In this document: positions 31,513-45,983 of the stretch, in pieces
Numbering within the stretch: position 1 is the stretch's first letter
How the letters are laid out: the number at the start of each line of letters is the position of its first letter
IMG/VR virus record: IMGVR_UViG_3300001460_005661
Span: 15,384 to 61,366 of that record
DNA length: 45,983 bases
Source of the DNA: a virus
Strand: one strand, 5' to 3'
Position numbers and translations under genes: made by a program
The notes under the pieces: model-generated
What the model was told of the DNA's origin: nothing
Database searches by the model: none
Seen by the model: the letters and a program-made list of their open reading frames with translations, nothing else

Positions 31513-34176
31513 ATGCCATACGTAGATGCTTTTTTTGATAGAGATGCAGATATTATTAGAGCTGTAGAACGTCGAGATGGCAAACGTCATTATCAAGAAT
31601 ACCAGGCCAAGTATACATTTTATTATGAAGATGTTAAAGGCAAGCATAAAAGCATATATGGAGATCCATTAACACGTATTGTATGTAAAAATACAAAAGA
31701 CTTTCGTAAAGAACTTGCTATAAACAAAGGCAAGAAAATGTTTGAGTCTGATGTAAATCCAATATTCCAATGCTTGAGTGAACATTATTTAAATCAAGAT
31801 GCACCAAAAATGAATGTTGCATTTTTTGATATCGAAACTGATTTTGATCCAGAGCGTGGATTTGCAGATCCTAGTGATCCTTTTATGCCTATTACTGCTA
31901 TTACTGTGCATTTACAATGGTTAGATGCATTAATAACATTTGCTATGCCGCCAAAGACACTTACTATGGAACAAGCACAAGCAGAGTGTTCTAATTTTAG
32001 TAATACATACTTGTATGAAAAAGAAGGCGATATGCTACAAGCATTTCTTGATATTTTAGAAGATGCAGATATTATGAGTGGATGGAATAGTGAAGGTTAT
32101 GATATTCCTTATACTGTAAATCGTGTTTCACGAGTATTAAGCAAAGATGACACAAGACGTTTTTGTTTGTGGAAGCAACTTCCTAAAAGACGTGAGTTTG
32201 AAAAGTATGGTAAAACTGCTGAAACATTTGATACTATTGGTCGTGTGCATATGGACTATCTTGAACTGTATCGCAAGTATACATATGAAGAACGACATAC
32301 ATACAGACTAGATGCTATTGGTGAATTGGAAGTTGGTGAAAACAAAACAGTGTATGAAGGTACACTTGATCAACTTTACAACAATGACTTTAAAAAGTTT
32401 ATTGAATATAATAGACAAGATGTTGCATTACTTGATAAACTAGACAAGAAACTACGTTTTATTGATCTTGCAAACGAAATTGCACATGACAATACTGTGC
32501 TATTGCAAACAACAATGGGTGCGGTAGCAGTTACAGAACAGGCAATAATTAATGAGTCACATAATAGAGGTATGATTGCTCCAAATAGGAAAGAACATGA
32601 AGGACAGACTGCCGCGGCAGGTGCATATGTTGCATATCCTAAAAAAGGTGTGCATGAATGGATAGGATCAATGGACTTAAACAGTCTATATCCAAGCGTG
32701 ATTCGTGCAATGAATATGGCTCCAGAAACTATTATAGGACAGTTGCGTCCTGACATGACAGATGAAATGTTGCACAATGCTACAACACTAGAAAAGAAGT
32801 CATTTGCGGCCGCTTGGGAAGGCAAGTTTGGTAGTTTAGAATATGAAGCAGTTATGGAGCAACGTAAAGATGTTAGTTTAACATTTGATTTAGAAGATGG
32901 CACTAGTCATGTACTAAGTGGTGCAGAAGTATACAAACTTATTTTTGATAATAATCAACCATGGATGCTAAGTGCAAATGGTACTGTTTTTACTTGGGAA
33001 AAAGAAGGTGTTGTCCCAGGTTTACTGAAACGTTGGTACAGTGAACGTAAAGATCTGCAAAAAATGTTAAAGAAAGCAAAAGATGCAGACAATGAAGCTG
33101 AGATTACTTTTTGGGACAAAAGACAACTTGTTAAAAAAATTAACTTGAACAGTTTGTATGGTGCTATTCTTAATCCAGGTTGTAGATTCTTTGATAAACG
33201 TATTGGACAAAGTACAACACTTACTGGCAGGCAAATTGCAAAGCATATGAGTGCCGAAGTAAACAAGATTGTAACTGGTGAATATGATCATGTTGGTAAA
33301 GCAATAATTTATGGTGATACTGATAGTGTGTATTTTAGTGCATATCCTATGCTAAAACCAGAAGTTGAAGCAGGTTCTATACCTTGGGGTAAAGATAATG
33401 TTATTACCCTATATGATCAAATATGTGAACAAGCAAATACAACATTTCCTGCATTTATGATGAATGCATTTCATTGTCCTAAGCAACGTAGCGATGTAAT
33501 TGCGGCGGCTAGAGAAGTTGTTGCAGACACAGGCTTATACATTACAAAAAAACGTTATGCAGTTCGTGTATACGATTTAGAAGGCTTTAGAACAGACAGT
33601 GATGGTAAAGAAGGCAAAGTTAAGGCAATGGGCTTAGACTTGAAACGCAGTGATACTCCTGTTTTTATGCAGGACTATTTAAAAACTTTGCTCGATATGG
33701 TATTAAAGCTAAAGCCTGAACAAGAACTATTAGAAAGTATTAGTGCATTTAGACGTGAGTTTAAAGAACGTCCAGGATTTGAAAAAGGTTCACCCAAACG
33801 TGCAAACAAGATTGGACATTATCAGCGTCTTGAAGAAAAACTAGGCAAAGCAAATATGCCCGGACACGTAAGAGCAAGTATTAACTGGAATACATTGAAA
33901 CGTATGAATGGCGACAAGTACTCTCAAGAGATTGTAGACGGAATGAAAGTTATTGTGTGCAAACTAAAACAGAATCCGTTAGGCTATACAAGTGTTGCGT
34001 ATCCAACAGACGAACTACGCATACCAGATTGGTTTAAAGAACTGCCATTTGACGGTGATGCAATGGAAGAAGTTATTATTGACAACAAACTAGACAACTT
34101 GATTGGTGTGTTGAAATATGATTTAGAAAGTACAAAACAAAAAACAACATTTAACAACTTATTTGAATGGGATTAA
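31513..34176 (+). CDS. 43: Family B replicative DNA polymerase (T4 gp43-like)
   Basis: 887 residues (T4 gp43 has 898), uninterrupted by intron or intein. Exonuclease motifs FFDIETDFD (about 103), GWNSEGYDIPY and YNRQDVALLDKL; polymerase motif A DLNSLYPSVIRAMN (about 388), motif B KINLNSLYGAILNP (about 541) and motif C YGDTDSVYF (about 600). All catalytic carboxylates are present, so both polymerase and 3'-5' proofreading activities are expected. It replicates phage DNA with the gp44 loader and gp45 clamp, both in this window. It has its own sigma70-like promoter. Confidence 0.97.
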   Translation: MPYVDAFFDRDADIIRAVERRDGKRHYQEYQAKYTFYYEDVKGKHKSIYGDPLTRIVCKNTKDFRKELAINKGKKMFESDVNPIFQCLSEHYLNQDAPKMNVAFFDIETDFDPERGFADPSDPFMPITAITVHLQWLDALITFAMPPKTLTMEQAQAECSNFSNTYLYEKEGDMLQAFLDILEDADIMSGWNSEGYDIPYTVNRVSRVLSKDDTRRFCLWKQLPKRREFEKYGKTAETFDTIGRVHMDYLELYRKYTYEERHTYRLDAIGELEVGENKTVYEGTLDQLYNNDFKKFIEYNRQDVALLDKLDKKLRFIDLANEIAHDNTVLLQTTMGAVAVTEQAIINESHNRGMIAPNRKEHEGQTAAAGAYVAYPKKGVHEWIGSMDLNSLYPSVIRAMNMAPETIIGQLRPDMTDEMLHNATTLEKKSFAAAWEGKFGSLEYEAVMEQRKDVSLTFDLEDGTSHVLSGAEVYKLIFDNNQPWMLSANGTVFTWEKEGVVPGLLKRWYSERKDLQKMLKKAKDADNEAEITFWDKRQLVKKINLNSLYGAILNPGCRFFDKRIGQSTTLTGRQIAKHMSAEVNKIVTGEYDHVGKAIIYGDTDSVYFSAYPMLKPEVEAGSIPWGKDNVITLYDQICEQANTTFPAFMMNAFHCPKQRSDVIAAAREVVADTGLYITKKRYAVRVYDLEGFRTDSDGKEGKVKAMGLDLKRSDTPVFMQDYLKTLLDMVLKLKPEQELLESISAFRREFKERPGFEKGSPKRANKIGHYQRLEEKLGKANMPGHVRASINWNTLKRMNGDKYSQEIVDGMKVIVCKLKQNPLGYTSVAYPTDELRIPDWFKELPFDGDAMEEVIIDNKLDNLIGVLKYDLESTKQKTTFNNLFEWD

Positions 34177-34177
34177 T

Positions 34178-34591
34178 ATGCGAGTAGGATTTACGTGTTC
34201 AACTTTTGATTTACTTCATGCCGGTCATATCGGTATGTTGCGAGAAGCAAAAGCAAATTGTGATTATTTAATTGTAGGATTACAAAGCGATCCAACTATA
34301 GATAGACCAGACACTAAAAACAAACCAATACAAACAATGGTAGAACGATATGCACAATTAAATGCACTACACTTGGTTGATGAAATTGTTCCCTATCAAA
34401 CTGAACAAGATTTGATAGATATATTAGAATTGTTTGCTATAAATGTAAGATTCTTAGGCGAAGAATATCGAGAGAAAGAATTTACAGGAAAAGATATATG
34501 TCGCAAGCGTGGAATTGATTTACATTTTAACAAACGTGATCACAGGTTTAGTACAAGTGATCTAAGAAAAAGGGTGTGTAAAGATGCATAA
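34178..34591 (+). CDS. Cytidylyltransferase-like protein (TagD/glycerol-3-phosphate cytidylyltransferase type)
   Basis: 137 residues from ATG 34178, one base after the polymerase stop; an in-frame ATG at 34163 is within the polymerase gene. Nucleotide-binding HAGH motif in TFDLLHAGHIGMLREAK, GLQSDPTIDRP, and FSTSDLRKR in place of the RTxGISTS motif. Family members transfer CMP or AMP to glycerol-3-phosphate or sugar phosphates. Followed by a phosphomannomutase-like and a nucleotide-sugar dehydrogenase gene, all overlapping by eight bases, so it probably serves sugar-nucleotide synthesis. Actual substrate unknown. Confidence 0.75.
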   Translation: MRVGFTCSTFDLLHAGHIGMLREAKANCDYLIVGLQSDPTIDRPDTKNKPIQTMVERYAQLNALHLVDEIVPYQTEQDLIDILELFAINVRFLGEEYREKEFTGKDICRKRGIDLHFNKRDHRFSTSDLRKRVCKDA

Positions 34592-35288
34592 ATTTATCTT
34601 CGATGTAGATGGCACAATTACTCCAAGCCGTGGACAAATTAATTTAGAATTTAAAACGTTCTTTAACACATTTTGTTCAACAAATGATGTATACTTAATA
34701 ACCGGTAGTGATAAAGAAAAAACTATAGAACAAATAAGTGAACACACATATAACCTAGCAAAAGTTGTTTATAATTGTAGTGGTAATGACGTATGGAGCC
34801 AAGGAGTAAATGTACATACAAGCAACTGGAAAGCAACAAAACCTTTAATGGAATTAATGCTAGGATGGCTTCAAGGAAGCTCTTTTCCTTGTCGTACTGG
34901 AAATCATATTGAAGAACGTCCTGGTTGTCTTAATTTTTCTATTGTAGGTAGAAATTGTACACTTGGTGAAAGAAAACTATATATGGAACATGACGAAGCA
35001 AACCGTGAAAGAGAAAGTATTGCATATCAAATAAATTCTGAATTTAATGATATAACTGCTAAAATAGGAGGTGAAACAGGCATTGATGTTTACCCTACTG
35101 GCTGTGATAAATCACAAGTTATAAATGAGTTTAATGGATTTGACAATTTAATATTTTTTGGTGATAAAATGGAACAAGGTGGGAATGATGAACCACTTGC
35201 AAAAGCTATTAAAAACAGAGGAAACGGAAAATCATATCATGTAAGAGATTGGAAACATACCTGGGAGATACTAAAAGATTATGCTTAG
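34584..35288 (+). CDS. Eukaryotic-type phosphomannomutase-like HAD phosphatase
   Basis: 234 residues (eukaryotic PMM about 245). FDVDGTITP gives the HAD nucleophile pair Asp7 and Asp9; RPGCLNFSIVGRNC parallels RNGMLNVSPIGRSC of PMM, IGGETGIDVYPTGCDKSQV parallels IGGQISFDVFPDGWDKRYC, and FFGDKMEQGGND the metal-binding FFGDKTxxGGND. PMM interconverts mannose-6-phosphate and mannose-1-phosphate. Bacteria usually use the unrelated ManB fold, so this form is unusual. Sits in a sugar-nucleotide run with a cytidylyltransferase and a dehydrogenase. Confidence 0.8.
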   Translation: MHKFIFDVDGTITPSRGQINLEFKTFFNTFCSTNDVYLITGSDKEKTIEQISEHTYNLAKVVYNCSGNDVWSQGVNVHTSNWKATKPLMELMLGWLQGSSFPCRTGNHIEERPGCLNFSIVGRNCTLGERKLYMEHDEANRERESIAYQINSEFNDITAKIGGETGIDVYPTGCDKSQVINEFNGFDNLIFFGDKMEQGGNDEPLAKAIKNRGNGKSYHVRDWKHTWEILKDYA

Positions 35289-36033
35289 AGTTGGTATTGC
35301 CGGGTATGGGTATGTAGGACAAGCTCATCACGAGGCACTAAAAGAATACTACGAAATACTAATAAGTGATCCTGCTAAAGGACACTATGCTGATTTACGT
35401 CATTGCGACTGTATATTAATATGTGTAGCAACACCGGAAGCAGAAGATGGTACCTGCAATATGCAAAATGTATATGATATACTTAACGATGCTAAGAATG
35501 TACCAATCTTAATCAAAAGTACAATAAGTATTGAAGGGTGGCAGTATATCCAACGAACTTTTAATAATATAAGTTTTTCTCCAGAATTTCTAAGAGCAGA
35601 ATCTGCACTAGAAGATTTCCGTAACAATAAGACAATACTTATAGGAGGCGATAGTGTAGGCTTTTGGCAAGACTTGTTTTTAAATGCAATGGGGAAGATT
35701 AATATTGATGTTGCAAAACCAGAAGATCTTATACTAGTAAAGTATTTTAGAAATAGCTTTCTTGCTACAAAAGTTTCTTTTTTTAACGAAATTTTTGACT
35801 TGTGTCAAAGCACAGATAGCAACTTTAAAAGAGTTGCAGAACTAATTGCGTTAGATTCACGTATCGGAAGCAGTCATACAGATGTCACAGAACAGCGTGG
35901 CTTTGGTGGTCATTGTTTTCCAAAAGATGTAAATGCTATATTAAAAACGGCAGACAATTTTGGAATTGATCTAAATATACTCAAAGCCGCTAATGAATAT
36001 AATAAAAAGATCAGAAAAAACCTTGACAAATAA
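35281..36033 (+). CDS. Short nucleotide-sugar dehydrogenase (UDP-glucose/GDP-mannose dehydrogenase family)
   Basis: 250 residues. N-terminal Rossmann fold GIAGYGYVGQAHHEA, ICVATP, STISIEGW, SPEFLRAESAL, and the catalytic cysteine in GFGGHCFPKD (near residue 212). Full-length enzymes are about 390-450 residues and have a third, UDP-binding domain that is missing here; the gene ends cleanly, so this is a compact family member or a natural truncation rather than a frameshift I can see. Its 3' end contains the clamp promoter -35. Confidence 0.75.
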   Translation: MLRVGIAGYGYVGQAHHEALKEYYEILISDPAKGHYADLRHCDCILICVATPEAEDGTCNMQNVYDILNDAKNVPILIKSTISIEGWQYIQRTFNNISFSPEFLRAESALEDFRNNKTILIGGDSVGFWQDLFLNAMGKINIDVAKPEDLILVKYFRNSFLATKVSFFNEIFDLCQSTDSNFKRVAELIALDSRIGSSHTDVTEQRGFGGHCFPKDVNAILKTADNFGIDLNILKAANEYNKKIRKNLDK

Positions 36034-36070: not shown

Positions 36071-36799
36071 ATGCAAGATATACTACAAGACATTGTAAGC
36101 CATACACACAAACTTGGCTTTATAACAACACTTAAAATTACAGCAGAAGCCGATACAATGATCGAAAGTATGGCAGATGATCGTAGTGTGATTATGACTG
36201 CTACTACGCATTCACCAGTAGGTGATTTTGATGGTACTTTTGGTATGCCGGATTTAGGAAAACTTGCTTATCACCTAAGTAATCCTGAATACAAAGAAAA
36301 CGCTGATATTAACGTTGTACAAGAAGATAGGAATGGTGAAAATATTCCTACACATATACATTTTGAAAATAAAGGCGGTGACTTCCAGAATGATTATCGA
36401 TTTATGAACAAAGCAATAATTGAAGAAAAATTAAAAAGTGTAAAGTTCAAAGTTAATACATATGATGTTGAACTAGAGCCAAGTATAGCATCAATTGGTA
36501 GAATGAAACTAATGGCAGGTGCTCACGCTGAAGAAAGTGTTTTTCAAGTAAAAACTGAAAACAACAATTTAAATTTTTATTTTGGTGATGCAGTAACACA
36601 CGCAGGTAATTTTACATTTCAAAATGATATTGAAGGTGAATTAAAACATACATGGGCTTGGCCAGTTGCACAAACACTTTCTATATTAAATTTAGATGGT
36701 GATAAAAAAATGTCTATTACTGATCAAGGTGCAATGATGATTAGTGTAGATAGCGGAATGGCAAAATATGATTATATTTTACCTGCACAACAAAAGTAA
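36071..36799 (+). CDS. 45: DNA polymerase sliding clamp (T4 gp45-like)
   Basis: 242 residues (T4 gp45 has 228). Two-domain clamp fold signature with beta-alpha-beta pattern; SYHLSNPEY-like LAYHLSNPEYKENADI, FMNKAIIEEKLKSVKFK and the end DSGMAKYDYILPAQ match gp45 proteins of T4-like phages. The trimeric ring tethers gp43 to DNA and, in T4, also activates late transcription. It stands under a consensus sigma70 promoter and overlaps the following membrane gene by one base. Confidence 0.85.
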   Translation: MQDILQDIVSHTHKLGFITTLKITAEADTMIESMADDRSVIMTATTHSPVGDFDGTFGMPDLGKLAYHLSNPEYKENADINVVQEDRNGENIPTHIHFENKGGDFQNDYRFMNKAIIEEKLKSVKFKVNTYDVELEPSIASIGRMKLMAGAHAEESVFQVKTENNNLNFYFGDAVTHAGNFTFQNDIEGELKHTWAWPVAQTLSILNLDGDKKMSITDQGAMMISVDSGMAKYDYILPAQQK

Positions 36800-37144: not shown

Positions 37145-38602
37145 ATGAATAACGATTTAACTACAGAACAAAAAGACTATGCAGTATTTTTACCAAGTAT
37201 AAGTGGATTTTATGCTACATTTATAGGCAAGCAACGATTTAGTGAGTATGTTGATCCAATGCGTATTCCTAGCGGATTAAACGGTATGGAAGGAATGAAC
37301 TTCCTAAATTCTAAAGAAGGTGCTTTTGAATATAAATGGGCGTTGTATAGTGCAGGACACGCAGATCTAGACATAACAAAACACGTTGAAAAAGAAGACA
37401 TGGTTCGCAATCGTGACAGAAATACTTCTTGGTTGTTAGGAGATTCAGGAGGCTTTCAAATTGCTAAAGGACTTTGGGAAGGAGATTGGAAAAATCCTAA
37501 TTGTCCAAAAGCACAAAAGAAAAGAGAACTTGTTGTTAATTGGATGGAAGAATATATGGATTATGGAATGATGTTGGATATTCCAACTTGGACATTTCAA
37601 GATCCAAAAGCTTCTAAAGCTAGTGGTATACACAGTTATCAAGATGCAGTAGATGCAACACATATTAACGCAGACTATTATATGAAGAATAGACGTGGAA
37701 ATTTTAAAGTACTAAATGTTTTGCAAGGTACAAATCACAAAGATGCAGATAGCTGGTATGAAGAATTTAAAGGATATTGTGATCCAAAACAATATCCAGA
37801 TACACACTTTAATGGGTGGGCAATGGGTGGACAAAATATGTGTGATGTTCATCTTATATTGCATAGGCTGGTTAATCAAATACATGATGGGTTACTAGAA
37901 GAAGGCTTACATGACGTTATGCACTTCCTTGGTACAAGTAAATTAGAATGGGCAGTATTGCTTACAGATATACAAAGAGCAGTTCGTAAACATCATAATC
38001 CTAACTTTATGATTACATATGATTGTGCAAGTCCTTTTCTTGCTACTGCAAATGGTCAAATTTATCATACAATACGTATTGAGGATAGAGGCAAGTGGAG
38101 TTATATGATGGGTCCAAGTGCTGATGATAAAAAATATTCAACTGACACAAGATTGTTTAGTAACGGTGTTATTGCTGATAACGTGTTTGAAAAATTTGAA
38201 GATTCTCCAATTAGTAAACATTTTAATATGAAGGATATTTGTATTTACAAACCAGGTGATTTGAATAAAATTGGTAAAGAAGGAAAAACAAGTTGGGATA
38301 GTTTTAGTTATGCGTTACAAATGGGTCATAATGTTTGGATGCATATAGAAAGCACACAACGAGCCAATAGAGAATATGATCAAGGTAAATATCCATATAT
38401 GCTAATAGATGAACGGTTTAATAAAGTTGAGTTTAAAAACGTGGTCGAAGAAATTTTTAGTTTAAAAGATAGACAAAAAAGTTTAAATCTTATAGAAGAA
38501 TATTCTAAGTTTTGGATGCAAGTAATAGGCACCAGACTAAATGTTGGCAAAAAAACAGTAAATGCAAGTACAAAATTTTCAGAATTATTTGAGGAGAAAT
38601 AG
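37145..38602 (+). CDS. tRNA-guanine transglycosylase/DpdA-like protein
   Basis: 485 residues from ATG 37145. A TIM-barrel TGT-superfamily pattern is visible: GDSGGFQIAKG with Asp100, the general acid/base position of TGT DSGGFQ; FNGWAMGGQ for the GYAIGGL segment; LGTSKLEWAVLL; and MITYDCASPF with Asp293 at the nucleophile position (TGT DCVxPTR). The C-terminal CxCxxC zinc site of tRNA TGTs is absent and about 100 extra residues follow. These traits suit DpdA-type enzymes that insert 7-deazaguanines into DNA, but tRNA modification is also possible. FolE at 45157 and a QueD-like candidate at 39483 would feed the pathway. Confidence 0.65.
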   Translation: MNNDLTTEQKDYAVFLPSISGFYATFIGKQRFSEYVDPMRIPSGLNGMEGMNFLNSKEGAFEYKWALYSAGHADLDITKHVEKEDMVRNRDRNTSWLLGDSGGFQIAKGLWEGDWKNPNCPKAQKKRELVVNWMEEYMDYGMMLDIPTWTFQDPKASKASGIHSYQDAVDATHINADYYMKNRRGNFKVLNVLQGTNHKDADSWYEEFKGYCDPKQYPDTHFNGWAMGGQNMCDVHLILHRLVNQIHDGLLEEGLHDVMHFLGTSKLEWAVLLTDIQRAVRKHHNPNFMITYDCASPFLATANGQIYHTIRIEDRGKWSYMMGPSADDKKYSTDTRLFSNGVIADNVFEKFEDSPISKHFNMKDICIYKPGDLNKIGKEGKTSWDSFSYALQMGHNVWMHIESTQRANREYDQGKYPYMLIDERFNKVEFKNVVEEIFSLKDRQKSLNLIEEYSKFWMQVIGTRLNVGKKTVNASTKFSELFEEK

Positions 38603-38603
38603 T

Positions 38604-38813
38604 ATGAGTGATACGGATAAACGACTTCGCAGACTAGAAGAACTCCGTACAAAGCATAAAGAGCTTGACAGTCATATAAAAAAATTATATAATAATGCTA
38701 TAACCGAAGAGTTGCGTAAACTAAAGACAGAAAAACTTTGGTTAAAAGATGAAATATATAGAATAGAACGAGAATTAATAAGCGAAGGCGTTTATGTAAA
38801 TGGATATCACTGA
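38604..38813 (+). CDS. YdcH/DUF465-like small coiled-coil protein
   Basis: 69 residues from ATG 38604 (GAGGAG at 38591-38596). RLRRLEELRTKHKELDSHIK then LRKLKTEKLWLKDEIYRIER follows the DUF465/YdcH pattern RLxxLxxxHxxLDxxI...LKKxKLxLKDEI. YdcH proteins are abundant small coiled coils of proteobacteria with unclear function. Overlaps the next small gene by 14 bases. Confidence 0.6.
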   Translation: MSDTDKRLRRLEELRTKHKELDSHIKKLYNNAITEELRKLKTEKLWLKDEIYRIERELISEGVYVNGYH

Positions 38814-38973
38814 GAAGACCCTTAAACTACAAGCACTAGAATTGTCTCTGGAAGATTTAGATAATATCATAAGAAATATGAAAGAGAATAACTATCCTGA
38901 CGAACAATTACAGGAATATCTAAAAAAACGCTTTAACACTTGGAATGAAATACATAAGGTAAAAAATGCATAG
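38800..38973 (+). CDS. Small helical hypothetical protein
   Basis: 57 residues filling the space between the YdcH-like gene and the gene at 38966, overlapping both (14 and eight bases). Amphipathic helices: LKLQALELSLEDLDNIIRNM and QLQEYLKKRFNTWNEIHKV. The tight overlaps and full use of the interval support it as real. AGCGAAGGCG upstream is a weak ribosome-binding site. No family recognised. Confidence 0.5.
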   Translation: MDITEKTLKLQALELSLEDLDNIIRNMKENNYPDEQLQEYLKKRFNTWNEIHKVKNA

Positions 38974-39478
38974 ACCATATGATAAAGTTATTGATAATGA
39001 TAGCTCTGCTGTAAACTTCTTTATAGGTACAGAAGTTGAGCATACTCCTCAATATAATAAAAAAACCTTATTTGTAGTTGGATTACAAAATATTGAAGAT
39101 ATTTTACTCCATGCAAAAAATAAAGGCGTTAATCATATCTATCTTGGAGCAAATATGAGTTTCGAACCAGTAGACGGTTATGACGATATGATATTTCCAT
39201 TATTGAAAGAGGGCTACTGGGTAACTTTAGACTTTCCTAATACTGACATTGAATGGGTATTAGAATCAGGCTATACAGAACATAATCGTTTTATTCCAAT
39301 GATTAGTGTACCACTGCCGTATATTGAACAGTTAGGTTATAATGCTTGCTTAAAGATTGATGACAGAGATTTTGATAGCACTAATCCAGGTGTATGGGTG
39401 CATAGAGTGCATGAATTAAAAATTAAAGAGTGTTTTACAGATTGGTCTAAATACACTATGGACGAAATAATAGGTTGA
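38966..39478 (+). CDS. Conserved marine phage protein of unknown function
   Basis: 170 residues. VNFFIGTEVEHTPQYNKKTL, LFVVGLQNIEDILLHAK, IYLGANMSFEPVDGYDDMIF and NRFIPMISVPLPYIEQLGYN are blocks I recognise as conserved among T4-like marine phages. The alternation suggests an alpha/beta barrel-like or nucleoside-binding fold. WVLESGYTEHNRF and the acidic KIDDRDFDSTNPG follow. It lies between the TGT-like gene and the QueD-like candidate, which makes a role in the same pathway possible, but no motif proves it. Confidence 0.55.
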   Translation: MHRPYDKVIDNDSSAVNFFIGTEVEHTPQYNKKTLFVVGLQNIEDILLHAKNKGVNHIYLGANMSFEPVDGYDDMIFPLLKEGYWVTLDFPNTDIEWVLESGYTEHNRFIPMISVPLPYIEQLGYNACLKIDDRDFDSTNPGVWVHRVHELKIKECFTDWSKYTMDEIIG

Positions 39479-39503
39479 CAAAATGCAACAAGAAGGTTAT
39501 TAT
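39475..39503 (+). promoter_or_regulatory. Sigma70-like promoter overlapping the start of the next gene
   Basis: TTGACA at 39475-39480, 17-base spacer, TATTAT at 39498-39503. Predicted initiation near 39510 is downstream of the ATG at 39483, so transcripts from it would be translated from the ATG at 39543, which has GAGAGAGGAAG upstream. Confidence 0.55.
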
Positions 39504-39938
39504 GAATATATGCAACGTCGAATGAGAGAGGAAGATACAAAAATGAACGAAACAAATAAATTAAATAATGCTAAACGTAGTATTTGGGTAACATTTCGTA
39601 AAGAGGGTATTCATTTGTATCCTGCGGCAAAAGACGATCCGGCACTTGCAACAGGCGGGTGGGATGATGTAAGTTTTCTAGGTGTTGCACATAGACATAT
39701 TTTTCATTTCAAAGTACAAATCCAAGTAACACATAACGATAGAGATATAGAGTTTATACAGTTTAAACGTTGGTTAGAAAGTTTATACGATAGTAGTGTA
39801 CTAGAACTTAACCATAAGTCATGTGAAATGATTTCAGATGATTTATATAAAGAAATTAACACAAAGTATCCCGGCCGCTTTGTTGTTATTGATGTCGCTG
39901 AAGATGGCGAAAACGGCTGTCAAATTGTTTACCCTTAA
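39483..39938 (+). CDS. QueD/6-pyruvoyl-tetrahydropterin synthase-like candidate
   Basis: 151 residues from ATG 39483, or 131 from ATG 39543, which has the better ribosome-binding site and lies downstream of a sigma70-like promoter. The layout recalls the T-fold of QueD: an early His (EGIHLYPAAKD), then GVAHRHIFHFKVQIQV in the place of LHGHxFxVxV, DIEFIQFKRWLESLY for the MVxDFxxLK helix, LNHKSCEMISDDLYKEI for LDHxxLN...AE, and VIDVAEDGENGCQIVY for the final strand. The zinc histidines are plausible but the match is remote. If correct it would make carboxy-tetrahydropterin from the FolE product. An unrelated conserved protein remains possible. Confidence 0.45.
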   Translation: MQQEGYYEYMQRRMREEDTKMNETNKLNNAKRSIWVTFRKEGIHLYPAAKDDPALATGGWDDVSFLGVAHRHIFHFKVQIQVTHNDRDIEFIQFKRWLESLYDSSVLELNHKSCEMISDDLYKEINTKYPGRFVVIDVAEDGENGCQIVYP

Positions 39939-39957
39939 AAGAAAAGGAAAAAGGTAA

Positions 39958-40146
39958 ATGACTATCAAAAATCCGGTAGTAAATAAAGTTTTTAACGACC
40001 TTGAAGAACTGCATAACTATTGCAGAACTGAAGGTTATCCATTTAACGAAGCTGACTTATATAAGTCAGAAGCTAGGGTATGGCAGGCTTTCCAAAAATA
40101 TAAAAATTGGATACGTGCCAAAAGCCGAAACAAAGGAAGGCGATAA
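39958..40146 (+). CDS. Small conserved phage protein
   Basis: 62 residues, basic C-terminus. VFNDLEELHNYCRTEGYPFN then EADLYKSEARVWQAFQKYKN is a pattern seen in short proteins of T4-like marine phages. AAAAAGG precedes the ATG. Its stop overlaps the glycosyltransferase start by one base. Function unknown. Confidence 0.55.
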   Translation: MTIKNPVVNKVFNDLEELHNYCRTEGYPFNEADLYKSEARVWQAFQKYKNWIRAKSRNKGRR

Positions 40147-41312
40147 TGAGAAAACTGTTTTATATGGGCCTAGAGCCTTACGAAGGCAGATACACATTAC
40201 AATTAGAAGAATGGAGTAGGCGTACATTTCAACGCAGAAACATTGACTGGGTAAGTGTACCTGGCACAACTATAGACAACACAAAGTCGATACAAGTTGG
40301 CCAGGTACTAGATGCCCATGGCAGAAGCTATTTCGCTATGTCGCAAATGATGAATCTTGTACAAATGATGCGTAACGGTGAAGTTACAGGTGAAGATATA
40401 GTTTTCTTTGAAGATATGTTTCAGCCTGGAATGGAGTCGTTACCTTATATTATGGACCAGATTCCAGTAGAAGAACGCCCACAAGTTTGGATACGTTGTT
40501 TAGCACAAGCAGTTGATCCAGATGACTTTGTACACGTTTGGGGTATGGGAAAATGGATGAGTTTGTATGAAGAAATGTGCAATGAATTTGTTACAGGCGT
40601 GTTGGCTAGTAACGAAGAAATGATTGCACATATGAAAATAGCAAACTGGAAAGCACCACTTTACAATATTAGCGGACTTGCTTTTGATAAAGTTGAAGTG
40701 CAACTTAGAGTAGGCAATATAATGCCTTGGAATGAACGCGAAAATAGAATAGTTTTTGCGGCACGATTTGATCAAGAAAAACAGCCTGACTTCTTTATGG
40801 ATCTAGCAGAAAAGCATGAATTTATAGATGGCATGAAATTTGCTATTGTGCAAGGTGGGCCGTTAAGAAGTAATAATCCAAAATACATCGAACGTGCAAG
40901 ACAATTAGAAGCTCGAGGTGTAATAGAAATTTATGAAAATCAAAAGAAAAACGATTATTATAATATTCTAAATAATAGTAAAGTACTATTTAATTGTGCT
41001 TTACAAGACTGGACAAGTAATACAGTAAGTGAAGCTGATGCATTAGGTTGTAATGTTTTGTTTCCTGCATATAGAAGTTTTCCTGAGATATTTGCAAATT
41101 GCCATGAACGTATGTATATTCCATGGAGTATTACAGATGCATTTAATAAATTAGGTCAATTGATACAATCTCCACATAGAGATATTGGAAAAATTAGTGA
41201 TTGGACTAGTGCTACTATTGACAGATATATTGATATAATGCAAGGCGATGGCGAACAATGGCGCAGAGATACAAATCGTTATAGAGATCACGTAGCGGAG
41301 ACAAAATATTGA
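40146..41312 (+). CDS. GT-B glycosyltransferase (GT1/GT4-like)
   Basis: 388 residues from ATG 40146 (AAGGAAGG upstream). The N-terminal half is a Rossmann-like domain (IVFFEDMFQPGMESL). The C-terminal half has the glycosyltransferase signature order: RIVFAARFDQEKQPDFFMDL, KFAIVQGGP, VIEIYENQKKNDYYNILNNS and NTVSEADALGCNVLFPAYRS, where the Glu of SEA contacts the nucleotide-sugar. It transfers a sugar from an NDP-sugar to an unknown acceptor (modified DNA base, host surface glycan or virion protein). The epimerase gene follows with a four-base overlap and probably supplies its donor. Confidence 0.75.
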   Translation: MRKLFYMGLEPYEGRYTLQLEEWSRRTFQRRNIDWVSVPGTTIDNTKSIQVGQVLDAHGRSYFAMSQMMNLVQMMRNGEVTGEDIVFFEDMFQPGMESLPYIMDQIPVEERPQVWIRCLAQAVDPDDFVHVWGMGKWMSLYEEMCNEFVTGVLASNEEMIAHMKIANWKAPLYNISGLAFDKVEVQLRVGNIMPWNERENRIVFAARFDQEKQPDFFMDLAEKHEFIDGMKFAIVQGGPLRSNNPKYIERARQLEARGVIEIYENQKKNDYYNILNNSKVLFNCALQDWTSNTVSEADALGCNVLFPAYRSFPEIFANCHERMYIPWSITDAFNKLGQLIQSPHRDIGKISDWTSATIDRYIDIMQGDGEQWRRDTNRYRDHVAETKY

Positions 41313-42184
41313 AAGTTTTAGTCACAGGCTGTAATGGTTATATAGGTAGTCATGTTGTAAAATTACTTTCTCAACACGGACATACTGTTACAGGGTGGGA
41401 TATCAATATACACGGAGAATATAATAATGTAGAACATTATCTACACAAATATGAACTTACAGACGTAACAAGTGATGTAATACCTCACAAGAGTTATGAT
41501 GCAGTAGTGCATTTAGCAGGACGTAGCGTTGTTCCAGATAGTTTAAAAGAACCTACAGAATATTATCGTGTTAATGTTATGGGTACAGCAAATATGCTTA
41601 ATTGCATCGATACTAATCATTTCCTATTTGCTAGTACAAGTAGTGCTTGGGAAATGGCATCACCATATGCTAGAAGTAAAGTTGGTGCAGAAGACGTAAT
41701 TAAGGAAAAAGCAAATGGTTATACCATATTTAGATTCTTCAACGTTAGCGGCACTGACGGAGTCAACAGGCAGTTGGGCGATGCTACTCATCTTATCCGT
41801 GTTGCTTCTCTTGCTTCTACCGGAAGACTCCCAGAAATAAAAGTTTATGGAACAGATTATGATACTAGAGACGGTACGTGTATACGTGATTATATACACG
41901 TTGTTGATTTAGCAAATGCAATAGTAAAAGCAGTAGATTCAGGTCCACAAAATACGCCATACGAATGTTTAGGTAGTAATACTGGATTTTCTGTAAGAGA
42001 AGTTTTAGATACTATGCAAAAGGTAACAGGTAAAAAATTAAAAATTGTTGAGGCTCCTAGAAGAGAAGGAGATGCAGTTATAAGTATAGTAGATGATCTA
42101 TCTAATTTTGTTACTTTAACAAAAACAATTGAAGATATGTGTTTAGACCAGTATAATTTAGAAAGGAGTAAAAATGCATTCTAG
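41309..42184 (+). CDS. NAD-dependent NDP-sugar epimerase (GalE-like), TTG start
   Basis: 291 residues starting at TTG 41309, overlapping the glycosyltransferase stop (TTGA) with GCGGAG upstream. Rossmann motif TGCNGYIGSH (GxxGxxG), VHLAGRSVVPDSL, catalytic Tyr120-x3-Lys124 in SPYARSK, FRFFNVSG, and RDGTCIRDYIHVVDLA as in UDP-glucose 4-epimerases. Slightly shorter than GalE (about 330). Likely converts UDP-glucose to UDP-galactose or a related pair for the adjacent glycosyltransferase. Confidence 0.85.
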   Translation: MKVLVTGCNGYIGSHVVKLLSQHGHTVTGWDINIHGEYNNVEHYLHKYELTDVTSDVIPHKSYDAVVHLAGRSVVPDSLKEPTEYYRVNVMGTANMLNCIDTNHFLFASTSSAWEMASPYARSKVGAEDVIKEKANGYTIFRFFNVSGTDGVNRQLGDATHLIRVASLASTGRLPEIKVYGTDYDTRDGTCIRDYIHVVDLANAIVKAVDSGPQNTPYECLGSNTGFSVREVLDTMQKVTGKKLKIVEAPRREGDAVISIVDDLSNFVTLTKTIEDMCLDQYNLERSKNAF

Positions 42185-42455
42185 TGAATTAAAAGAACAG
42201 GATAATATCTATTGGATGGTATTACGTGCAGTTGAATACTTAGATGAAGGAGAATTTTTAGAAGGAATTATGTGGTTTGAAGATACTGCAAAACACGTTC
42301 TAAATGATATTGACGAATGGCCTGAGCGTCCTGAGATGCTTGATGATTGTCGAGAAATTCAAGAAATGATACAAAACGAAGATTGGCCAGGTGTTTTAGA
42401 AAATATGGAAAAAATACGTGGCCATATGGAAGCATTAGGATATTACGATGACTAA
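42174..42455 (+). CDS. Small acidic hypothetical protein
   Basis: 93 residues, very acidic (many Glu/Asp) and helical: YWMVLRAVEYLDEGEFLEGI, MLDDCREIQEMIQNEDWPGV, ENMEKIRGHMEALGYYDD. A strong AAAGGAG precedes the ATG. Overlaps the epimerase by 11 bases and the next gene by eight. Acidic composition might suggest DNA mimicry, but that is speculation. No family recognised. Confidence 0.55.
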   Translation: MHSSELKEQDNIYWMVLRAVEYLDEGEFLEGIMWFEDTAKHVLNDIDEWPERPEMLDDCREIQEMIQNEDWPGVLENMEKIRGHMEALGYYDD

Positions 42456-42822
42456 GTCAATGGCTCCAGATGAAAGTGGATTTGGTTGGTATGAACTTGA
42501 TAATGGAACAATTACTATAACTACTGAAGACACACACAATTATAGTTTTAGTAATGATGAAGTAATCAATGTATCCTTAGATTCAGATACAACATTCAGT
42601 ACAAATGATACAACTACCGTAACAGGCGATTACAATCCTCACTATGATATAAATATTAATTCATTGCCTAAAGAAGAATTTGTAGATATATTGCCCAATA
42701 TTAAAAAAGTAAATGAAATGTGTAAAAATTATCCAGCACTTGATAAAGTTTACGAGCAATTCAAAACAATATATCATATGGTTCATCAAGATTATACAGG
42801 AAAGAAAAAAGCAAAAGGTTAA
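42448..42822 (+). CDS. Hypothetical protein
   Basis: 124 residues. The N-terminal 65 residues are beta-like and Thr/Asp-rich (WYELDNGTITITTEDTHNYS, DSDTTFSTNDTTTVTGDYNP); the rest is helical (FVDILPNIKKVNEMCKNYPA) ending in a basic tail (TGKKKAKG). No known domain. Coupled to its neighbours by an eight-base overlap upstream. Confidence 0.5.
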   Translation: MTKSMAPDESGFGWYELDNGTITITTEDTHNYSFSNDEVINVSLDSDTTFSTNDTTTVTGDYNPHYDININSLPKEEFVDILPNIKKVNEMCKNYPALDKVYEQFKTIYHMVHQDYTGKKKAKG

Positions 42823-42825
42823 TTT

Positions 42826-43071
42826 ATGCATCATACTATTGAAGATTTAATTAGTAGAATAAATGTAATGCACGAAAAAGCAATTCTGCTTCATAGAACT
42901 AGAAACCAATACAGTAAATTGGCTAATAAAGATTACGATTTACTTGCCTGCAAAGAGCTTGTAAATGATATACAAGCACTAGCATTATCAATTGCTCACG
43001 ATAGAGGCAATCCTGATGAAATTAAAACAGAAATGGAATATAAAAATTATGATAAAGAAACATTATTATAG
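42826..43071 (+). CDS. Small helical hypothetical protein
   Basis: 81 residues, predicted mostly helical (IEDLISRINVMHEKAILLHR, YDLLACKELVNDIQALALSI), with four His and no motif. It starts three bases after the previous stop. Its 3' end overlaps the phosphoribosyltransferase start by 23 bases. Confidence 0.5.
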   Translation: MHHTIEDLISRINVMHEKAILLHRTRNQYSKLANKDYDLLACKELVNDIQALALSIAHDRGNPDEIKTEMEYKNYDKETLL

Positions 43072-43597
43072 TTGGCAAGATATTGAAACAATGTGTACAA
43101 ACATTGTAAAACAAATGTATAAGACCTCATGGAAGCCGGATTATATAGTTGGAATTACAAGAGGTGGCAATGTTCCTGCTACCATTATTAGCAACATGAC
43201 AGGCATACGTTGTGAAGCACTCAAAGTAAGTTTACGTGATGACGATAGAGATAGCGAAAGTAACTTTTGGATGGCAGAAGATGCATTTGGCTATGTTAAA
43301 AAATATGCTACAGAAGAAGGCACAAGTAATCCTAAAGCACGTAAGCAAATACTTGTTGTTGATGATATTAACGATACTGGGGCAACATTTAATTGGATCA
43401 AACAAGACTGGCAAGCAAGTTGTTTGCCTAACAGCGAAGCGTGGGAAGATATTTGGCAAGAAAATGTTCGTTTTGCAGTGCTGACTGAAAATACTGCAAG
43501 TGAGTTTGGTAGCGTAGACTATCTTGTGCATGAAGTAAACAAAACAGACGAAGATGTTTGGCTAGTTTATCCATGGGAAAATGTAGGAGAATATTAA
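43049..43597 (+). CDS. Type I phosphoribosyltransferase
   Basis: 182 residues from ATG 43049; an earlier in-frame ATG at 43016 is possible and neither site is strong. YIVGITRGGNVPATIISNMT is the N-terminal PRTase segment with the RGG pyrophosphate loop, and ILVVDDINDTGAT is the PRPP-binding motif. WLVYPWEN at the end is typical of xanthine/hypoxanthine-type PRTases. It probably salvages a purine or related base to its nucleotide; the base is unknown. In the context of FolE and a TGT-like protein, salvage of guanine or a deazaguanine is worth testing. Confidence 0.8.
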   Translation: MIKKHYYSWQDIETMCTNIVKQMYKTSWKPDYIVGITRGGNVPATIISNMTGIRCEALKVSLRDDDRDSESNFWMAEDAFGYVKKYATEEGTSNPKARKQILVVDDINDTGATFNWIKQDWQASCLPNSEAWEDIWQENVRFAVLTENTASEFGSVDYLVHEVNKTDEDVWLVYPWENVGEY

Positions 43598-43914
43598 TGC
43601 TTGTTTTTATTATTGGATATTTAATAATGTTTTTTAATGAAGGATTTGTGATAATGCGTCACGTAAGTCCTTGGTTTGCAAAAAAACGGATGTTATTACA
43701 TTTACGATTTGGTAGAGAACGAATAAAACGTATCCACGGACTAACTGATTGGTCATGGATAATTTTGTTAACATTAGGAATATATTTAGATTTTGACAAT
43801 TGGAAAGTGTACGCAGTGCTTGTGTTTGCTTTCTGGATCATTGTAGCAGTAGGAGTTTATCTTCCTATGCTATATAGAAAAATAAGAAAACAGCCAACAG
43901 GATATGTAAAATGA
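43597..43914 (+). CDS. Small membrane protein
   Basis: 105 residues from ATG 43597 (AGGAG at 43585-43589), overlapping the PRTase stop by one base. Hydrophobic helices at about 1-18, 49-63 and 70-90, a basic loop (AKKRMLLHLRFGRERIKRIH) and a basic C-terminus. No family recognised. Overlaps the heme oxygenase start by four bases. Confidence 0.5.
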   Translation: MLVFIIGYLIMFFNEGFVIMRHVSPWFAKKRMLLHLRFGRERIKRIHGLTDWSWIILLTLGIYLDFDNWKVYAVLVFAFWIIVAVGVYLPMLYRKIRKQPTGYVK

Positions 43915-44444
43915 GCAAATTAAAAGAACTTACTTGGGAAAATCACAAAAAAGCAGAACGCAAAGCGATTGCTAAAAAGCTAATAAAAGGCATGGAACCT
44001 AGAGAATACCATACTTTCCTTTATAATCAATATGTCAACTATGCGGCATTAGAAAGTGTTGCTAGAGAAGCAGGCGTGCTTGAAGGTATTGAAACTATAT
44101 GTAGAGCATCAGGATTTCTTAAGGATATGCAAGAACTAGAAGATACACACGGAATTGAAAGAGATGCAGAAGTTTTAGTTGATGTTATACCAGAGTATGT
44201 TGATTATGTTACTAAACTTGATAACGAAGGATTATTAGCACACATTTATGTTCGACACTTTGGTGAACTACATGGCGGACAAATGATTAAAAAACGTGCT
44301 CCAGGTAGCGGTACTGTTTATGATTTTGAAGATCCTAAAAAAATTATCAGCGATGTTCGTGAAAAACTACATGACGGAATGGCACCAGAAGCTAATGTGT
44401 GTTTTGAATTTGCAATGAAAATGTTTGAACAATTAGAGGCATAA
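43911..44444 (+). CDS. Heme oxygenase-like protein
   Basis: 177 residues, slightly shorter than HO-1-type enzymes (200-240). His12 in WENHKKAERKA matches the proximal heme ligand (THxxAE), and AHIYVRHFGELHGGQMIKKR matches the distal helix (YxRYLGDLSGGQ), with HGG for SGG. HO cleaves heme to biliverdin, CO and iron using ferredoxin electrons. Marine cyanophages carry ho1 for bilin synthesis; in a non-photosynthetic host, iron release or heme turnover is more likely. The ferredoxin at 11109 is a possible electron source. Confidence 0.75.
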   Translation: MSKLKELTWENHKKAERKAIAKKLIKGMEPREYHTFLYNQYVNYAALESVAREAGVLEGIETICRASGFLKDMQELEDTHGIERDAEVLVDVIPEYVDYVTKLDNEGLLAHIYVRHFGELHGGQMIKKRAPGSGTVYDFEDPKKIISDVREKLHDGMAPEANVCFEFAMKMFEQLEA

Positions 44445-44445
44445 A

Positions 44446-44712
44446 ATGATTATCGACTGGCAAGTTAGAGATATCGTAAATGAAATAAATAAAATTAGTC
44501 GAGCCGCAAACGATCCATACATGGACGGATTCAATACATGGGGAGCAAAACAAGATTTGTATCAAATCTTATGGCACGTTGAGTCACAATTAAAAAAATG
44601 TAGTACGTATGCTGGTGAAGACGATTATGTGAAAGAACATGAAAAAAGATTAACATTTGAAGCACTAGGAGGGAAAAATGGGTTGCGGATGCAGAAGATC
44701 ACCAACAGGTAA
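44446..44712 (+). CDS. Small conserved phage protein
   Basis: 88 residues, one base after the heme oxygenase stop. DPYMDGFNTWGAKQDLYQIL, then LKKCSTYAGEDDYVKEHEKR is a pattern recurring in T4-like marine phages. Helical, no catalytic motif. Its last 35 bases overlap the next microprotein gene in another frame. Confidence 0.55.
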   Translation: MIIDWQVRDIVNEINKISRAANDPYMDGFNTWGAKQDLYQILWHVESQLKKCSTYAGEDDYVKEHEKRLTFEALGGKNGLRMQKITNR

Positions 44713-44791
44713 GTGTATTGGTTGGCATAATCTGTCAGAAGAACAGTATCAAATAAAAAAAATTGAATATGAAGAAAGACAAAAACAATAA
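44678..44791 (+). CDS. Cysteine-containing microprotein
   Basis: 37 residues: GCGCRRSPTGKCIGWHNLSE followed by a charged helix (EQYQIKKIEYEERQKQ). Cys3, Cys5, Cys13 and His17 could bind one metal ion. An AGGAGGG ribosome-binding site lies just upstream, the strongest in this neighbourhood, which supports translation although the start is inside the preceding gene. The pattern resembles other marine phage microproteins. Confidence 0.5.
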   Translation: MGCGCRRSPTGKCIGWHNLSEEQYQIKKIEYEERQKQ

Positions 44792-45089
44792 AATGTCTAT
44801 TGCAGAACAGTACCCTGATGGGTATAGTATAGAATGGCGAAAATTAGACGACCAAGTTTACATTAATAAGGAGAAAAAAATGAAACCAGGCGAAGCAATT
44901 ATACTAGCGGCAAAAGCACAAGCTGAAGGAGAAATAGCAGTGCATAAAGCAAATATTATGGTTTATCAAACTATGCCAGCTGGAATCGGCGAACATTCTG
45001 ATGTTACCGAAGCTGTTATAGAAGAACTAGATAAAATGGCCGCGGCCGCAGATAGATTAGAAATGATAGAAAAATATTTTAGTTCTTGA
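44769..45089 (+). CDS. Conserved small phage protein with a strong internal start at 44880
   Basis: 106 residues from ATG 44769 (other in-frame starts: ATG 44793 and ATG 44880). The ATG at 44880 has AAGGAG at 44868-44873, by far the best site, and the 69-residue product MKPGEAIILAAKAQAEGEIA...IGEHSDVTEAVIEELDKM resembles a conserved marine phage protein by itself. The upstream stretch (YPDGYSIEWRKLDDQVYINK) is also open and protein-like, so either an N-terminal extension or a former separate gene has joined it. The Ala run near residue 92 is written GCC GCG GCC GCA. Confidence 0.55.
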   Translation: MKKDKNNKMSIAEQYPDGYSIEWRKLDDQVYINKEKKMKPGEAIILAAKAQAEGEIAVHKANIMVYQTMPAGIGEHSDVTEAVIEELDKMAAAADRLEMIEKYFSS

Positions 45090-45114
45090 CAAAAGATCTA
45101 AATAATGTTACTAT
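45086..45114 (+). promoter_or_regulatory. Sigma70-like promoter with extended -10, and leader of folE
   Basis: TTGACA at 45086-45091, 17-base spacer, TACTAT at 45109-45114 preceded by TGT. The -10 lies in a small palindrome (TGTTA CTA TAACA, 45106-45118). The leader has a five-pair hairpin (AAGAC 45124-45128 with GTCTT 45135-45139) and CGGAG before the ATG at 45157. Confidence 0.6.
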
Positions 45115-45156
45115 AACAACTATAAGACATCCTCGTCTTTAACTCGGAGAAAAAAT

Positions 45157-45888
45157 ATGACAAATACAATAGAAGGACTGGATACAGATAATGTAGATCC
45201 GGTAAAAGTTAGCGAAGTGGTACGTGAAAGACTTCGTAAAAATAATGTTCGCTTTTTTGCAAATGATAATATTAGTGAACACGTTAGTGAATTTGAATTA
45301 CAAGAAATACAAAATGAACTAAGTTATAAGTTTCAAGATGTACTCGAAACATTAATTATTGATACAGACAATGATCCTAATAGTGAAGGTACTGCAAAGC
45401 GTCTTGCTAAAATGTATATAAACGAACTTATGAGCGGGCGTTACTTTCCGCAACCTAAGGCTACAGCATTTCCTAATGATAACGAAGATCGTTATGAAGG
45501 TATGTTAGTTGTAAGAAGTGAACTTAAGAGTGTATGTTCACATCATCATCAGCCAGTAGCAGGTATTGCGTACATTGGTATTATTGCCGCAGATAAACTG
45601 ATAGGCTTGAGTAAGTATACACGTATTGCACAATGGTGTGCTAGACGTGGTACACTACAAGAAGAACTTGCAGGTGATATTGCAAAGCAAATTATAGCGG
45701 CAACTGATGCAAATGATGTCGGTGTTTATATTCAAGCAACACACGGTTGTTGTGAAAATAGAGGCATAATGGCACATAGTAGTCTAACACAAACAAGTGT
45801 GCTTAAAGGTGCATTTAAGGACGATGCAAGTACAAAGAAAGAGTTCTTTGATAATATCAAACTACAGCAAGAGTTTGCACCAAGATGA
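45157..45888 (+). CDS. folE: GTP cyclohydrolase I (FolE)
   Basis: 243 residues (E. coli FolE 222). Zinc ligands and active site in SVCSHHHQPVAGIAYIG (Cys near residue 127 and His) and THGCCENRG (Cys near 197); TAKRLAKMYINELMSG, KLIGLSKYTRIAQWCARR and LQEELAGDIAKQI complete the family signature. It converts GTP to dihydroneopterin triphosphate, the first step of both folate and 7-deazaguanine (preQ0/queuosine) synthesis. It has its own sigma70-like promoter, and a flavodoxin gene overlaps its stop by four bases. Confidence 0.95.
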   Translation: MTNTIEGLDTDNVDPVKVSEVVRERLRKNNVRFFANDNISEHVSEFELQEIQNELSYKFQDVLETLIIDTDNDPNSEGTAKRLAKMYINELMSGRYFPQPKATAFPNDNEDRYEGMLVVRSELKSVCSHHHQPVAGIAYIGIIAADKLIGLSKYTRIAQWCARRGTLQEELAGDIAKQIIAATDANDVGVYIQATHGCCENRGIMAHSSLTQTSVLKGAFKDDASTKKEFFDNIKLQQEFAPR

Positions 45889-45983
45889 GAATAGGTCTTA
45901 TGTTTGGATCAACAACTTCAAATAGTGAACGTACTGCGGAAACTATTTGGAATACTATGCAAGAAACTGAACTACACGATATT
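45885..45983 (+). CDS. Flavodoxin (3' truncated by window edge)
   Basis: Thirty-three residues are visible, starting with an ATGA overlap on folE. RIGLMFGSTTSNSERTAE is the N-terminal strand and FMN phosphate-binding loop (G-S-T-T-S-N-S/T) of flavodoxins, followed by helix 1. Flavodoxins donate electrons to radical-SAM enzymes such as QueE, so the position next to folE is suggestive. The remainder lies outside the window. Confidence 0.75.
   Translation, partial: MRIGLMFGSTTSNSERTAETIWNTMQETELHDI

Follow-up and report, generated by a model that had tools for sequence, protein, structure and literature searches.

A probable QueC-independent 7-deazaguanine cassette with a TGT-fold, DpdA-like protein beside a viral DNA polymerase gene

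Most of what is known about guanine modification in phage DNA concerns preQ0 and compounds derived from it. A gene cluster of a marine phage, in the virus record IMGVR_UViG_3300001460_005661 (61,366 bases) probably represents a different route. The stretch analysed comprised bases 15384-61366 of this record (45,983 nucleotides, hereafter the window), and its end is the end of the contig. The cluster is best explained as a 7-deazaguanine DNA-modification cassette that would be independent of QueC, leave the pathway at 7-carboxy-7-deazaguanine (CDG) instead of preQ0, and employ a new DpdA-like transglycosylase with the fold of the tRNA-guanine transglycosylases (TGTs), possibly producing a glycosylated base. 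This interpretation rests on fold, motifs, synteny, the lack of a recognisable full-length QueC, and the loss of catalytic residues from a QueD-fold paralogue.

In the proposed pathway, FolE would form dihydroneopterin triphosphate, QueD (the host's, or phage-encoded in some relatives) would convert it to CPH4, and QueE, expected a short way downstream and with the phage flavodoxin as its probable electron source, would yield CDG. The QueD-fold paralogue, the phrog_17812 protein, would probably alter CDG; loss of the carboxyl group, yielding 7-deazaguanine, is the simplest such change. The DpdA-like enzyme, with D293 as the nucleophile, would then exchange the base into phage DNA, a phosphoribosyltransferase would salvage the guanine set free, and a glycosyltransferase may decorate the product. 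The reactions after CDG, DNA as the substrate, the supply of QueD by the host, guanine salvage and the role of the sugar genes are the parts of this scheme that we infer.

Relatives of the TGT-like protein are encoded on 185 IMG/VR stretches, and the gene order is syntenic across 80 related loci; the synteny is with DNA polymerase, FolE and QueE. Loci are given L-numbers below. The ratio of nonsynonymous to synonymous substitution rates (dN/dS) of the TGT-like gene was 0.06-0.11 against four relatives with measurable dS, two further pairs being saturated. Together, this distribution, synteny and constraint indicate that the cluster is more than a chance arrangement. Of the preQ0 pathway proposed in an earlier, sequence-only reading of the window, the linkage of a DpdA-type enzyme to FolE and QueE beside the DNA polymerase was retained and the preQ0 endpoint was not. 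The cassette, seemingly without QueC and with a glycosyltransferase, is common to a widespread viral group and to several unrelated cultivated phages, including the Pseudomonas aeruginosa jumbo phages PA5oct and Paride; since cultivated members exist, the base is directly measurable. It provides a candidate function for phrog_17812 and for a large TGT-like protein family without annotation, and suggests a new variant of phage armour against bacterial restriction enzymes.

A TGT-fold protein related to DpdA2

The putative base-exchange enzyme is a protein of 485 amino acids (37145..38602, + strand; ATG at 37145, stop at 38602). Its assignment to the TGT superfamily in the sequence-only reading, based on Asp100 and Asp293 and the lack of a zinc site, was borne out. 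D100 lies within DSGGFQ and D293 within YDCASPF, and neither residue varies among 26 viral sequences or in the homologues of PA5oct, Phosso and Vibrio phage 2.275.O. The protein has just five dispersed cysteines (120, 212, 233, 294 and 366) and therefore lacks the CxCxxC zinc motif of tRNA TGTs. An AlphaFold2 model built from the 26-sequence alignment (mean pLDDT 74.5, pTM 0.80) showed a TGT fold: the first 14 Foldseek matches in the PDB were all tRNA-guanine transglycosylases (E 3.8e-6), and VIA-align superposed it on Thermotoga maritima TGT (2ash_A) with Z 19.6 and rmsd 4.6 over 308 aligned residues. The modelled barrel fold and the two conserved, predicted catalytic aspartates are as in the TGT superfamily.

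Sequence searches placed the protein outside the annotated families. There was no Pfam, no significant PHROG and no meaningful NCBIfam match, the tRNA TGT families gave no sequence match, and a PDB sequence search returned chance ribosomal matches only. Neither the window protein nor its homologues P0002-P0004 matched phrog_10773, and the phrog_10773 profile missed the window family in PA5oct and Phosso and matched it marginally in Vibrio phage 2.275.O. At the profile level, hhalign connected the family of the window protein to proteins of the DpdA2 type (Prob 86.9, E 4.2e-6), pairing DSGGFQ with DSGGLQ and YDCAS with YDSST. Among the comparisons with DpdA families, this one gave a match and those with phrog_10773 and with the DpdA of Enterobacteria phage 9g did not, the 9g side of the latter comparison possibly lacking a profile. 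By tblastn, 13 phage records contained homologues, namely PA5oct-like Pseudomonas jumbo phages (36% identity), Sinorhizobium phage Phosso and Vibrio phage 2.275.O, with no match in Campylobacter or haloviruses; an IMG/VR scan with the PA5oct DpdA as query found nothing. The family is a candidate for a previously unrecognised DpdA-like subfamily, as set against DpdA2 and 9g DpdA.

Among known systems, the DpdA2 cluster of phage nt-1 (phrog_10773; Hutinet 2019, PMC6884629) resembles the window in its TGT-fold enzyme beside FolE and in the aligned DSGG[FL]Q and YD motifs, but QueC adjoins DpdA2 there, and searches with phrog_17812 and the glycosyltransferase did not return nt-1. Structure matches of the window model in BFVD include the 464-residue nt-1 protein R9TGF0, which agrees in length and phage with the nt-1 phrog_10773 protein adjoining FolE and QueC and is taken to be the DpdA2 of that study (PMC6884629). 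The window protein is thus distantly related to nt-1 DpdA2, outside phrog_10773. The 9g DpdA/archaeosine pathway shares FolE, QueE and the base-exchange logic of a TGT paralogue with the window; in contrast, its QueC is fused to a Gat domain (PMC6884629), and its DpdA is the one without an hhalign match.

The TGT fold and the DSGGFQ motif, both as in tRNA TGTs, together with a YhhQ-type transporter in some relatives, would also suit a cassette that raises queuosine in host tRNA during infection, with the TGT-like protein acting on tRNA. This reading, which competes with DNA modification, is very improbable in view of the missing zinc site, the profile link to DpdA2-type proteins, the lack of a sequence match to tRNA TGT families, the DNA polymerase neighbourhood, the missing QueC, and a conserved glycosyltransferase that has no known role there.

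A weak fold match (E 0.14) linked the window model to the Halovirus HCTV-1 protein R4THZ2 (387 amino acids). This protein equals in length gp64, which adjoins FolE, and could be an archaeal-virus transglycosylase (L102, 5643-6806).

FolE, QueE, the QueD-fold paralogue and the QueC question

FolE (GTP cyclohydrolase I; 45157-45888, + strand; PF01227, E 1.4e-38) and the flavodoxin joined to it had both been named from the sequence, and both assignments held. The start of the flavodoxin gene (45885-45983, + strand) overlaps the stop codon of folE, and the end of the contig truncates the gene. Its 33-residue N-terminal stub alone matched no Pfam family, and L072 encodes a longer PF00258 flavodoxin that begins almost identically; the window flavodoxin is likely the electron donor of QueE. 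QueE and QueC had been predicted to lie just downstream. For QueE the prediction agrees with the relatives: it stands downstream of FolE in 21 related loci, and in seven of them the two genes share a few bases. One of the seven is L002, where the DpdA-like protein has 93% identity to that of the window. Of 22 large related contigs, all possibly incomplete, 20 were positive in a QueE profile search, 19 of these above 170 bits. In the QueE proteins of L002 (14007-14903), PA5oct, nt-1 and BUCT-ZZ01, an insertion of ~40-50 residues separates the second and third radical-SAM cysteines, so that the motif reads CxxxC ... CDS/T and not CxxxCxxC.

For QueC the prediction found no support in the window group. 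None was found in the window's own record, and the 22 contigs gave short partial matches only (at most 35 bits). Among 11 cultivated phages carrying phrog_17812, none had a full-length QueC and two partial matches were obtained (32.8 and 16.2 bits), compared with 180-238 bits for 9g, nt-1 and phiSM in the same search. These absences, and the missing catalytic residues of the QueD-like protein, argue against preQ0 as the end product. That a phage missing QueC alone could carry CDG in its DNA has already been remarked by Hutinet et al. (PMC6884629).

The phrog_17812 protein (39483..39938, + strand; phrog_17812 E 1.6e-32, function unknown) is a paralogue with the QueD/PTPS fold. Because its profile matched that of phage QueD only weakly (Prob 36), the fold was settled by structure comparison: E. 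coli QueD was the first Foldseek match of the predicted model (pLDDT 83.8), and VIA-align gave Z 10.7-11.7 against QueD/PTPS, other tunnelling-fold enzymes matching too. Aligned with four phage QueD proteins, it keeps HxH (a predicted zinc-type site), the catalytic Cys is replaced by Leu, and the Asp-His segment (FDHT) is gone. The QueD-like candidate of the sequence-only reading has kept the QueD fold and lost its catalytic residues. Since six phages (ACP17, phiST, BUCT-ZZ01, RHph_I1_18, PA5oct and Phosso) carry a genuine QueD as well, phrog_17812 likely has a reaction of its own and is not simply QueD. It probably acts on CDG. Work by Cui and colleagues from 2023 in NAR reportedly describes dCDG, 7-deazaguanine, a CDG decarboxylase DpdL, and the additional DpdA subfamilies DpdA3 and DpdA4. 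The phrog_17812 protein would presumably fit DpdL. Regarding DpdL, DpdA3 and glycosylated deazaguanine, no accessible paper settled the product.

Several points weigh against a QueC-independent pathway ending at CDG. The 22 contigs behind the QueC, QueD and QueE counts may be incomplete, and the window's own contig stops before QueE, whose absence there is explained by the end of the record. Genuine QueD is absent from 16 of the 22 contigs, which may make the pathway reliant on the host. Some related contigs encode, beside radical-SAM genes, divergent PP-loop proteins of a QueC-like kind (L081 1495-2109, L083 1495-2148 and L085 1495-2172, minus strand) that carry SGGADS and a Cys cluster and could act as QueC. 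The DpdA-like family is also not limited to QueC-less phages, because the homologue in Vibrio phage 2.275.O adjoins a true QueC. Downstream of this homologue come, in order, an unknown protein, QueF, a YhhQ-type transporter (PF02592), QueC, an aminohydrolase and FolE.

The QueC and QueF genes of the Vibrio phage, the divergent QueC-like proteins and the contigs without QueD, where phrog_17812 would fit the QueD step, all favour a standard preQ0 or archaeosine-type pathway. In such a pathway the host or a divergent phage protein would provide the QueC step, phrog_17812 would be a diverged QueD, and DpdA would insert preQ0. However, this is unlikely, given that phrog_17812 is without the Cys and Asp-His of QueD and occurs together with a genuine QueD in six phages, and that the 11 cultivated phages carrying it gave no full-length QueC. 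The exit at CDG therefore remains the preferred, though by no means certain, reading.

Glycosyltransferase and sugar-nucleotide genes

The sequence-only reading had overlooked a glycosyltransferase gene and sugar-nucleotide genes that are interspersed among those of the cluster. The GT4-type glycosyltransferase (40107..41312, + strand, probable ATG at 40146; PF00534) was present in 66 of the 67 related loci with enough sequence, and the NAD-dependent sugar-nucleotide epimerase/dehydratase (41309..42184, + strand; PF01370, E 9.5e-36) in 52 of the 53 with at least 3 kb downstream. Upstream lie genes, all on the + strand, for a cytidylyltransferase-like protein (34163..34591; PF01467, E 1.2e-12), a phosphomannomutase-like HAD protein (34584..35288; PF03332, E 1.7e-26) and a UDP-glucose/GDP-mannose dehydrogenase-like protein (35281..36033; PF00984, E 5.1e-25), which may possibly supply sugar nucleotides. 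In L008, L063, L068 and L069, a YhhQ-type transporter (PF02592 in L068) stands between glycosyltransferase and epimerase and perhaps imports a deazaguanine precursor.

The window glycosyltransferase is 70% identical to UTS52032, encoded in the cluster of BUCT-ZZ01, a phage with a DpdA2-type enzyme in place of the window DpdA-like family. Further homologues occur in the deazaguanine clusters of PA5oct, Phosso, ACP17 and X1, and the gene lies within the cluster in six phage lineages. When 50,697 phage records were searched, the window glycosyltransferase returned 4 records and the PA5oct version 19. Apart from four Xanthomonas/Erwinia records, all came from phages with the cluster; of those four, at least PhiXhv-12 has a QueE match. 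Because of this near-exclusive distribution with the deazaguanine cluster, chance adjacency was judged less likely.

Two cultivated phages come close to the window arrangement. Acidovorax phage ACP17 carries QueD, FolE, the companion protein described below, a TGT-fold enzyme, the glycosyltransferase, phrog_17812 and QueE in one run, likewise without QueC; unlike the window, its enzyme is of the DpdA2 type, and no epimerase or phosphoribosyltransferase is annotated within the run. Pseudomonas phage PA5oct has the DpdA-like family itself (36% identity), in the order polymerase, DpdA-like protein, glycosyltransferase, phrog_17812, a small protein, epimerase, phosphoribosyltransferase and QueE. 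It differs in having genuine QueD genes elsewhere in the genome, and FolE is not annotated in the stretch examined.

The conserved gene neighbourhood suggests that a sugar may be added to the modified base. Even if the cassette leaves the pathway at CDG, there is a substantial, somewhat less than even, chance that the glycosyltransferase and sugar genes are fortuitous neighbours serving cell-surface or virion glycosylation, and that the DNA carries a plain 7-deazaguanine derivative. Large phages commonly carry sugar-nucleotide genes, and phiST has phrog_17812, QueD, QueE and FolE, with no glycosyltransferase of the window family found there. The rarity of the glycosyltransferase among phage records, nearly all of them with a deazaguanine cluster, and its position next to DpdA in ACP17, X1 and PA5oct argue the other way. 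We propose only tentatively, as a rather doubtful possibility, that phrog_17812 processes CDG and that the GT4 enzyme glycosylates deazaguanine in DNA with sugar nucleotides supplied through the phage genes. If true, such a glycosylated deazaguanine would be a hypermodification of guanine, comparable in its logic to the glucosylated cytosine of T4.

Other genes of the locus

The phosphoribosyltransferase (42992..43597, + strand, inner ATG at about 43049; PF00156), named correctly from the sequence, looks to be of the xanthine/guanine type: it had xanthine phosphoribosyltransferase as its best NCBIfam match, below cut-off, and resembles the annotated XGPRT adjoining QueE in BUCT-ZZ01. A role in guanine salvage would be reasonable because base exchange releases guanine.

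A family-B DNA polymerase (31513-34176; phrog_262, E 5.9e-197) is read as marking the replication region, and the virus is taken as T4-like. The product of 36071-36799, which in the profile libraries matched only phrog_12062 (function unknown), is read as a putative sliding clamp from its sequence and position. Between the TGT-like and phrog_17812 genes lies a conserved companion protein of unknown function (38966..39478, + strand; 33.6% identity to ASD50402), which is present in all 67 related loci having at least 1.5 kb downstream; its homologue stands before DpdA2 in ACP17. Downstream of FolE in L044, L045, L056 and L061, proteins resembling a periplasmic substrate-binding protein and a 2-oxoglutarate oxygenase were read from the sequence. 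The window also contains a heme oxygenase gene (43911-44444; PF01126, E 1.1e-15), which is found in only 2 of the 80 related loci.

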